From the IMG/VR virus record IMGVR_UViG_3300025128_000048, positions 1-55,873 of that record: a DNA stretch of 55,873 bases; one strand, 5' to 3'. Under the pieces are notes generated by a model, which was not told the origin of the DNA, did not search any database, and worked only from the letters and a program-made list of their open reading frames with translations. The stretch comes from a virus. The position numbers were made by a program, and so were the translations under genes. This document shows, in pieces, positions 4,711 through 20,884 of this stretch; position 1 is the first letter of the stretch; every line of letters starts with the position of its first letter.

Positions 4711-4726
4711 GGTCCAACATTGGACC
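4711..4726. repeat. GTCCAA-N2-TTGGAC inverted repeat, copy 1
   Basis: GGTCCAA-CA-TTGGACC is a perfect 7-bp dyad followed by CTAAA. Related copies lie at 5501, 6285 and 7982. This copy lies in the intergenic control region. Confidence 0.75.
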
Positions 4727-5070: not shown

Positions 5071-5085
5071 CTAAACGGAGTTTAG
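5071..5085 (+). promoter_or_regulatory. Ribosome-binding hairpin with GGA loop (copy 1)
   Basis: CTAAAC-GGA-GTTTAG: a 6-bp stem places GGA, the Shine-Dalgarno core, in the loop. ATG at 5088 follows 8 nt later. The same architecture with different but complementary stems occurs at 5704, 6304 and 20874. The ACGGA core resembles the ANGGA loop motif bound by CsrA/RsmA proteins. Confidence 0.6.
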
Positions 5086-5087
5086 AT

Positions 5088-5675
5088 ATGACACAGAAAA
5101 TTGTTAACGAAGTTATCGCCGCTGAGATCAACACTCTTGAAGCTGAAGGCAAAGCCTTAGCCGAAATGTGGACAACTATCTGCAAGGCAGATAAGGCTCG
5201 GTTCACCAAGTCAGTCAAGGCAGATGGCTTTGACACACGGCTTGGAAAGCTGATGCAAAAGCTGAAGGCTGAAGGCGGTGAGCGGATTTCATCCGACAGG
5301 CTGAAAGATTGCAATATCAATGGAATTGATAAACGCCGCAGAGCAGAGGCTCTCTGGTTCGTTGAAAACGAAACTGAAGCAAGGGCCTTCATCAAAGCCT
5401 CAAAGAAAGGCTTCACCAACTTGACTGCACTGCAAGCCGCAATGCGGAAAGCCGCTAAAGCGGTTGAGCCAAAAGCTGAAACCAACGAAGTTGAGCCTAA
5501 GTCCAATGTTGGACCTACCAACGAAGTTGAGGCAAAGCCAGAGGCCAAGCCAACACCAGAAGCCCTTGTGCTTGCATTGCTTACACAATGTCGTGAAAAC
5601 GACATCCCTGTTAGCGAGGTGCTTGCCATCCTTAACCAAAAGGTTAAGCCCCAAAACAAAAAGGCAGTAGCGTAA
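5088..5675 (+). CDS. First early gene, helical protein with EVEPK-type linker
   Basis: This 195-residue protein starts at ATG 5088, chosen because a hairpin-displayed GGAG precedes it; an upstream frame back to 4977 lacks such a site. Residues 1-125 are charged and helical (IVNEVIAAEINTLEAEGKAL, ARFTKSVKADGFDTRLGKL). Residues 128-160 are a Pro/Glu/Lys linker with repeats (EVEPK, EVEAK, EAKP). The C-terminus is a short helical tail (LVLALLTQCRENDIPVSEVL). One GTCCAA dyad repeat lies inside the linker-coding DNA. As the first early gene it may be a host-takeover or regulatory protein, but no domain is recognised. Confidence 0.7.
   Translation: MTQKIVNEVIAAEINTLEAEGKALAEMWTTICKADKARFTKSVKADGFDTRLGKLMQKLKAEGGERISSDRLKDCNINGIDKRRRAEALWFVENETEARAFIKASKKGFTNLTALQAAMRKAAKAVEPKAETNEVEPKSNVGPTNEVEAKPEAKPTPEALVLALLTQCRENDIPVSEVLAILNQKVKPQNKKAVA
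5501..5514. repeat. GTCCAA-N2-TTGGAC inverted repeat, copy 2
   Basis: GTCCAA-TG-TTGGAC followed by CTACCAAC lies inside the first early gene, where it encodes SNVGPT in the low-complexity linker. The element is tolerated within coding sequence only at this flexible site. Confidence 0.7.
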
Positions 5676-5703
5676 GCTACTGTCTACCCTTCCTTTCAAC
5701 TTA

Positions 5704-5718
5704 CAATACGGAGTATTG
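5704..5718 (+). promoter_or_regulatory. Ribosome-binding hairpin with GGA loop (copy 2)
   Basis: CAATAC-GGA-GTATTG has a 6-bp stem with the SD core in the loop, 9 nt before ATG 5722. Relative to copy 1 the stem bases differ on both sides in a pairing-preserving way. Confidence 0.6.
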
Positions 5719-5721
5719 AAA

Positions 5722-5958
5722 ATGATTATCAACGAAATTATGCATGGTTTCCTTTGCGTATTCATGTGGTGTGTAGCATTCGCATTCTTCTGTGCTGGCC
5801 TCGTGACAGCTTTGCTAATTGACCCATATACTGGCGGCATGTGCTGGTGTGTAGCATTCGTAGCTTGGGCGGCTGGCTTGGCTTTCTACGATAGCCACTT
5901 GAGACTCCGCCAAAACCGTATTCACGAAAACATTTTGAGGCAGTACAATGCAAAATAA
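5722..5958 (+). CDS. Small two-helix membrane protein
   Basis: This 78-residue protein has two hydrophobic segments (about residues 9-32 and 37-54) and a charged C-terminus. The helices share the same start, WCVAFAFFCAGL and WCVAFVAWAAGL. The DNA shows an exact 16-nt internal repeat (TGGTGTGTAGCATTCG), so the second helix probably arose by duplication of the first. The hairpin RBS at 5704 fixes the start; a TTG at 5716 would fall inside the hairpin. It probably sits in the inner membrane. Function is unknown; candidates are superinfection exclusion or early membrane modification. Confidence 0.65.
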   Translation: MIINEIMHGFLCVFMWCVAFAFFCAGLVTALLIDPYTGGMCWCVAFVAWAAGLAFYDSHLRLRQNRIHENILRQYNAK

Positions 5959-6214
5959 AGGTGATTTATTTCAAGTCTGGAATGGTCGGGCAGACTTTGT
6001 GCCAGACCTACGGTCAAGAGCAAAGTGGGCTGGTAACAGCCCCAATGCCTACACACATGCCTATATGCCGGAGAGAAGCCTTGAGCCTCGTTGCTTTGTG
6101 ACGGGTCAAGCTGACGCGGCGCGGCAAGCGTATGAGGCACGTATACAACGTGAGGCTGACTTGCGGAAAATTGATGACGAGTTGGCGGCGTTGGCTGACC
6201 TTGACTTGCTTTGA
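5948..6214 (+). CDS. Early hypothetical protein
   Basis: This 88-residue protein (MQNKGDLFQVWNGRADFVPD...) has a helical, charged C-terminal half (AARQAYEARIQREADLRKID). It overlaps the upstream membrane protein by 11 nt and is probably translationally coupled to it. An intergenic promoter/hairpin region follows. No domain is recognised. Confidence 0.6.
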   Translation: MQNKGDLFQVWNGRADFVPDLRSRAKWAGNSPNAYTHAYMPERSLEPRCFVTGQADAARQAYEARIQREADLRKIDDELAALADLDLL

Positions 6215-6239
6215 CATATAGTGTAACTTACGTAATAAC
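6211..6239 (+). promoter_or_regulatory. Rightward sigma70-like early promoter
   Basis: TTGACA (6211-6216), a 17-bp spacer and AATAAC (6234-6239; four of six match TATAAT). The -35 overlaps the end of the previous gene. AAGTGT-type half-sites lie in the spacer and just downstream, so a regulator bound there would compete with RNA polymerase. Confidence 0.45.
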
Positions 6240-6280
6240 ACTTGAAACTTTGTGAAAGTGTTATTACTTAGATACACTTA
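6219..6280. repeat. Long imperfect inverted repeat with 12-bp perfect core
   Basis: GTAATAACACTT (6232-6243) pairs perfectly with AAGTGTTATTAC (6256-6267) across a 12-nt loop. The outer flanks AGTGTA (6220) and TACACT (6273) extend the symmetry. The element contains four AAGTGT-like half-sites in alternating orientation. No T-run follows, so an operator or mRNA leader structure is more likely than a terminator. Confidence 0.65.
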
Positions 6281-6284
6281 GCTA

Positions 6285-6298
6285 GTCCAATGTTGGAC
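6285..6298. repeat. GTCCAA-N2-TTGGAC inverted repeat, copy 3
   Basis: GTCCAA-TG-TTGGAC followed by CTAACCAAACGGAG lies directly upstream of the hairpin RBS of the next gene. The CTAACCAA tail is also seen after copies 2 and 4. Confidence 0.75.
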
Positions 6299-6303
6299 CT
6301 AAC

Positions 6304-6316
6304 CAAACGGAGTTTG
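6304..6316 (+). promoter_or_regulatory. Ribosome-binding hairpin with GGA loop (copy 3)
   Basis: CAAAC-GGA-GTTTG has a 5-bp stem with the SD core in the loop, 7 nt before ATG 6319. Confidence 0.55.
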
Positions 6317-6318
6317 AA

Positions 6319-6591
6319 ATGCAAAATCGTAAAGATGAATTGATACAAACCTTGTGGGATTTGTTCAAGGATGTGCATGGTGTACGTCCTCGTGGCATGG
6401 ACTATGACCGTTGGTCAGTGACTGACCTTGAGTGGGAAGTAGCTATGCTACAGCAATCCCTTGAGGATGACTTGCGCTGGGAGCGTGAGCAGGAAGACCG
6501 TGCAATCAATGCTTGCATGGAATTTGGTGCCAGTGACATAGCTACAGCTATGCGGTGGCTGGAAGAAGCGTATGATATGGAGTGGGTGTAA
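6319..6591 (+). CDS. Early acidic phage protein
   Basis: This 90-residue acidic protein has an N-terminal block ELIQTLWDLFKDVHGVRPRG, then DYDRWSVTDLEWEVAMLQQS. A similar layout recurs in many phage hypotheticals. The rest is helical and rich in Glu and Asp. The next gene starts on its stop codon (TAATG). No enzymatic motif is seen. Confidence 0.65.
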   Translation: MQNRKDELIQTLWDLFKDVHGVRPRGMDYDRWSVTDLEWEVAMLQQSLEDDLRWEREQEDRAINACMEFGASDIATAMRWLEEAYDMEWV

Positions 6592-20737: not shown

Positions 20738-20884
20738 ATGTACATAACCATTGAGGTGGACGATGAAGAGTATCCGGTCCCTGCTGATGGCAGGGTTGGA
20801 GAAGAATTAGAGGATAGCCTACACGATTATTTCCATGATATAGATGGGGCTAACATTAAGCATATTAGAACGATTACGGAGTAA
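20738..20884 (+). CDS. Small acidic protein (48 aa)
   Basis: ATG 20738 lies one base after the previous stop; the frame ends at TAA 20882-20884. The product MYITIEVDDEEYPVPADGRV... is acidic, ending IKHIRTITE, and looks like a small alpha/beta domain. The stop codon lies inside the RBS hairpin of the reductase gene, so its translation could open that hairpin. Confidence 0.55.
   Translation: MYITIEVDDEEYPVPADGRVGEELEDSLHDYFHDIDGANIKHIRTITE
20874..20884 (+). promoter_or_regulatory. Ribosome-binding hairpin with GGA loop (copy 4)
   Basis: TTAC-GGA-GTAA has a 4-bp stem with the SD core in the loop, 7 nt before the reductase ATG at 20888. It is the shortest of the four and the only one in the replication module. 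Confidence 0.4.

Follow-up and report, generated by a model that had tools for sequence, protein, structure and literature searches.

SD-sequestering hairpins in general enclose the Shine-Dalgarno sequence (SD), so that the ribosome has to unfold them. The operators of MS2 coat protein and T4 gp43 are small hairpins, each located at a phage gene's ribosome-binding site. A GGA in a hairpin loop that overlaps the SD is a typical geometry of CsrA targets (PMC7366521). The hairpins described here resemble all of these and match none. What sets them apart from SD-sequestering hairpins at large is the fixed C-GGA-G tip, which recurs at the first genes of a phage group on stems that change in a compensatory way. 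Unlike in the MS2 coat and gp43 cases, the element recurs before several early genes, its stems are free and any protein that binds it is putative. As in a structured ribosome-binding site, the SD lies in a hairpin directly 5' of the start and pairing is kept by compensatory change. We found no description of this SD hairpin element in the open-access papers that we searched.

The window is the whole stretch of DNA that was analysed, 55,873 bases of a virus record. A 20-kb query from it matched Puniceispirillum phage HMO-2011 at 77% identity over 36% of its length, and the order of the replication genes is that of HMO-2011; on these similarities, we class the window as a marine phage of the HMO-2011 type. 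Phages of this type are one of the dominant marine phage groups, and the hosts of those in culture are SAR116, Roseobacter and SAR11 strains (PMC9038755). The window also carries, on the minus strand at 152-1234, a phage gene with a match to PF00848 (ring-hydroxylating oxygenase alpha-subunit catalytic domain, E 4e-8).

Three hairpins that hold the SD core in the loop precede early genes of the window (Table 1), with 6, 6 and 5 Watson-Crick pairs around the GGA in hairpins 1, 2 and 3. All four strings listed in an earlier reading made from the sequence alone (the sequence-only reading), these three and TTAC-GGA-GTAA at 20874, are present where it placed them. Comparative sequence analysis gives the anatomy of the element as a stem of 5-7 bp, mostly A-U, a GGA triloop and a stem end 0-5 nt before the ATG. 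The SD is GGAG, the final G of which forms the closing C-G pair from the 3' side. Predicted pairing probability in context is 0.92-0.99 for hairpin 1, 0.69-0.98 for hairpin 3 and low (0.09-0.34) for hairpin 2. Folding predictions in a 120-nt context are uneven across sites. An Rfam covariance-model search of the hairpins gave no match at the gathering score; hairpins this short rarely have a model.

Table 1. Positions of the SD hairpins, of the genes that follow them and of the ribonucleotide reductase site in the window
Feature	Position	Strand	Remarks
SD hairpin 1, CTAAAC-GGA-GTTTAG	5071..5085	+	ends 2 nt 5' of gene 1 ATG (5088)
Gene 1	5088..5675	+	195 aa, function unknown
SD hairpin 2, CAATAC-GGA-GTATTG	5704..5718	+	ends 3 nt 5' of gene 2 ATG (5722)
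Gene 2	5722..5958	+	78 aa, small protein, hydrophobic stretches
SD hairpin 3, CAAAC-GGA-GTTTG	6304..6316	+	ends 2 nt 5' of gene 3 ATG (6319)
Gene 3	6319..6591	+	90 aa, phrog_21968, function unknown
TTACGGAGTAA before ribonucleotide reductase	20874..20884	+	not in hairpin family; upstream ORF end doubling as SD

Short A-U-rich stems could arise by chance, and the contigs compared here are related, so that common ancestry without selection on structure could also account for the hairpins. To this explanation we assign next to no probability, given where the hairpins lie. Every GGA on both strands of the window was scanned against 200 dinucleotide shuffles, and hairpins exceeded the shuffled expectation at stems of at least 4 bp (10 vs 5.1), at least 5 bp (7 vs 1.3) and at least 6 bp (5 vs 0.31); some of them fall in coding sequence, unrelated to starts (e.g. 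at 5322). When only GGAG sites are counted, a stem of at least 5 bp occurs at 3/54 start-proximal sites and at 0/128 elsewhere. Thus, the comparison with random positions that the sequence-only reading had raised places the hairpins at starts and not elsewhere.

The same enrichment was observed in relatives, whose loci were collected via a gp01-like protein, gene 1 and gene 3. The set fetched by gp01 has hairpin sites at 32/1017 start-proximal positions vs 2/1578 others (redundant contigs included). Among 83 non-redundant CGGAG start sites of the close group, 44 have at least 5 pairs and 24 have the C-G pair alone; stem lengths are therefore two-peaked, and a rough composition estimate predicts at least 5 pairs in only ~1-2 of the 83. 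A later set, fetched by CRP-345 gp04 and not selected for hairpins, gave 22/201 start-proximal vs 7/228 others with G-U pairs allowed, and all 22 are C-GGA-G; this set is not fully independent, as it includes a few contigs closely related to earlier ones (e.g. L350 and L299). In this set, too, stems stay paired although their arms differ in sequence. A generic scan for SD hairpins with loops of 3-8 nt was mostly at the shuffled level outside the close group, indicating a signal confined to the triloop class. Viral contigs were also pattern-scanned for AAACGGAGTTT before ATG, a search in which the matches listed give no frequency.

Compensatory change in the stems, far beyond that in shuffled and slid controls, is the second line of evidence against chance or ancestry. 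Leaders were aligned gap-free on GGAG. The least selected alignment is that of the gene 3 family, in which non-pairing members were kept: 75.8% of its cells are paired, with a covariation score of 0.427 vs at most 0.170 when slid. At the gene 2 position, 91.0% of cells are paired and the score is 0.675 vs at most 0.187, in an alignment that mixes small proteins of more than one family sharing this place and is thus positional, not strictly orthologous. The pooled leaders, drawn from hairpin-bearing families and excluding many gp01-family leaders clearly without a hairpin, have 80.6% of cells paired, a score of 0.584 vs at most 0.142 and 75 doubly changed cells. Since pairing is kept while both arms change, these alignments indicate that the fold itself is under selection and that the stem sequence is free. 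At gene 1, for example, leaders of relatives read CTAAAC, ATAAAC/GTTTAT or TCATC/GATGA. Such free variation of the arms at the same gene makes a sequence-specific DNA operator for a protein unlikely. The claims of the sequence-only reading that three early genes have their SD core in a hairpin loop, and that the stems differ yet pair, thus hold: the hairpins are above chance by position and by shuffles, and the compensatory changes recur in the leaders of related phages.

The element extends to cultured phages. HMO-2011 has three sites, at 85, 247 (with a U-G closing pair) and 458, the first and last with a predicted 120-nt-context pairing of at most 0.1. At least one site is present in each of the roseophages CRP-1 and CRP-345. 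In CRP-1, whose gp01 is 40% identical to gene 1, TAAATC-GGA-GATTTA precedes an unannotated 54-codon ORF 3' of gp01; in CRP-345, TTAAC-GGA-GTTAG precedes gp04. The CRP-1 ORF (L303, ~658-822) lies between CRP1_gp01 and gp02, which is the position of gene 2 in the window. One phage (L299) has the hairpin on five of its genes. Several orthologues, including the window's own gp01, are without it, and the hairpin is therefore not indispensable. Two distant relatives have a GAA triloop and a shifted register: TTAAAAG-GAA-CTTTTAA, with the SD in the 5' arm and loop (L123, 45-83 and 760-797), and TATCCT-GAA-AGGATA, with the SD in the loop and 3' arm (L308, 4219-4280 and 4962-5001). From its pairing, the SD of the L308 hairpin is plainly sequestered.

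The fourth hairpin of the sequence-only reading, before ribonucleotide reductase, did not survive comparison. A conserved short ORF directly 5' of the reductase (20738-20884) ends in ...IRTITE-stop, and its last codons are the reductase SD. In the reductase leaders of 80 contigs, ACGGAGTAA usually closes an upstream frame (T-E-stop, M-E-stop or Q-E-stop) and at the same time supplies the SD. Relatives keep this coding-plus-SD string (ACGGAGTRA, ATGGAGTGA, CAGGAGTGA) mostly without pairing, TTAC/GTAA occurs in ~7/80, and predicted context pairing at 20874 is 0.01-0.03. We therefore rejected this hairpin as a coding coincidence, and with it goes the proposed link to ribonucleotide reductase and dNTP synthesis.

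That reading had also taken the loop for the ANGGA core bound by CsrA/RsmA-type regulators and suggested translational control by such a protein of host or phage. CsrA/RsmA targets, e.g. the hcnA leader, do present GGA at the tip of a hairpin that overlaps the SD, and such binding would coordinate several genes. CsrA targets share this geometry with the hairpins here, but not the core (PMC7366521): in those targets ANGGA sits in a larger loop, whereas here the near-invariant core is C-GGA-G, a C-G-closed triloop of just 3 nt. The adenine of ANGGA is not invariant, being replaced by U in TC-GGA-GA variants (ATC-GGA-GAT) that keep the fold, and the L308 relative has GGA buried within the stem. 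Its register shift and that of L123 favour a gate on the SD over plain display of GGA to a CsrA-like protein. CsrA is present in 36/190 sampled genomes of the class of a metagenome-assembled genome (MAG) bearing a related phage, and is thus patchy in that class; it was not found in two MAGs whose bins include related phage DNA, nor was csrA found in eight phage records of this type. Accordingly, we consider CsrA/RsmA an extremely improbable ligand. Coordinated control, the broader part of the same proposal, may plausibly apply to the early genes; the dNTP-synthesis and CsrA/RsmA parts are not supported.

A different protein might read the hairpins instead. A phage or host RNA-binding protein that recognises the C-GGA-G triloop hairpin could block or open the early SDs jointly, acting like CsrA, MS2 coat protein or T4 gp43 while being none of them. 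In the main group, loop size, GGA and the closing C-G hardly vary, A-U or U-A follows as the second pair and the rest of the stem is free; moreover, several genes within a phage share the element. The near-constancy of the loop there keeps a dedicated protein conceivable. Nevertheless, GGAG would be fixed anyway since it is the SD, the two distant relatives alter loop and register yet keep the hairpin, and there was no candidate among the proteins scanned. We regard such a translational operator as possible but rather unlikely. Its more specific form, an early-gene translational regulon in which the phage encodes an RNA-binding protein, of unknown family, that recognises the hairpin and co-switches several early genes, is a shade more doubtful again.

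The loop is also that of the single-stranded DNA hairpin promoters of the N4 virion RNA polymerase, which have a GGA-type loop of 3 nt closed by a C-G pair, a sheared G:A and non-conserved stem bases that are free if paired (PMC4496689). This pattern is the one seen here, likewise before early genes, and the identical loop is what raised an N4-type DNA promoter as a candidate. It was rejected mainly on orientation. In N4 the GGA of the loop belongs to the template DNA strand, so that transcription from the hairpins here would head away from the gene; the GGA of these hairpins is always on the coding strand, and all lie at SD distance from a same-strand ATG. N4 requires -8G, where A or U is found here. 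The giant N4 polymerase has ~3,500 residues (PMC12633501), but the largest ORF of the window has 1303 aa, ten large window proteins scanned included no polymerase, and an RNA_pol family search, run without a ringing control, gave no match. Such a promoter has, in our view, only a negligible chance of being correct.

The explanation that we favour, with slightly better than even confidence, is that the hairpins act in cis on RNA to control how translation of the first early-region cistrons is initiated. In the folded hairpin, the SD would be unable to pair fully with 16S rRNA, as its last G is engaged in the closing pair and the triloop is too small for a 4-bp duplex. The 30S subunit would then have to open a marginally stable hairpin, resulting in damped and adjustable initiation. 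Calculated stabilities at 37 C are -0.5 to -2.8 kcal/mol for most hairpins and 0 for two 5-bp stems made of A-U pairs plus the C-G; at 15 C they are -1.4 to -5.6 kcal/mol. The stems are thus predicted to be weak at 37 C and of moderate strength at the temperature of the sea. The hairpin may also keep the SD from pairing with the structured upstream leader, and the balance may be shifted by S1, ribosome load, a phage protein or temperature. Whether the effect is to repress, delay or protect is something we infer. Start sites in these phages comprise 398 AGGAG vs 83 CGGAG; the hairpin needs a C before GGAG, which excludes the longer AGGAG SD of most other genes. This loss would fit damping, not maximal initiation. 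With its fold under selection, the hairpin probably sets the timing of early-gene translation.

Protection could also be directed at a nuclease, with the fold hiding GGAG from an endoribonuclease that targets SDs, whether of phage or host-defence origin. T4 RegB cleaves the GGAG of early SDs, and RNA structure protects (PMC3014915). RegB sites resemble those here as GGAG SDs of early genes, but RegB favours GGAG that is unstructured and has A-rich sequence after it. In T4, however, the early messages are the ones cut, and a search of eight phage records for RegB, without a ringing control, gave no match; we find a nuclease shield very unlikely. T4 RegA sites are unstructured and A+U-rich with the AUG (PMC3014915), unlike the structured targets here, and a RegA family search, which also had no ringing control, gave no match.

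Two other repeated elements occur in the same region. A long inverted repeat, GTAATAACACTT-GAAACTTTGTG-AAAGTGTTATTAC, lies 5' of gene 3 (6232-6267) and at the same place in HMO-2011 and relatives; its loop is conserved, its arms co-change between phages, and it may be linked to a promoter or to RNA processing. A palindrome of 16 bp, AGTCC[A/G]NNNN[T/C]GGACT, is found in the window at 4711, 5500, 6284 and 7981, in a relative (L083) at 60, 1261 and 1926, and in many others. Its copies sit between early promoters and SDs and also within gene 1. Nearly all copies in one phage are alike (all AGTCCA or all AGTCCG) and phages differ, as expected of operators that co-change with their regulator. A role for this element as a switch pairing with the SD was dropped, since the CGGAG SD is identical in AGTCCA and AGTCCG phages.

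Gene control in HMO-2011-type phages is little known. A short SD hairpin that covaries and recurs at the first genes would set early translation in a compact way, and the hairpins can be tested directly in the cultured phages HMO-2011, CRP-1 and CRP-345. The combination of a fixed loop and a sequence-free stem shows one way in which a set of mRNAs can be marked.
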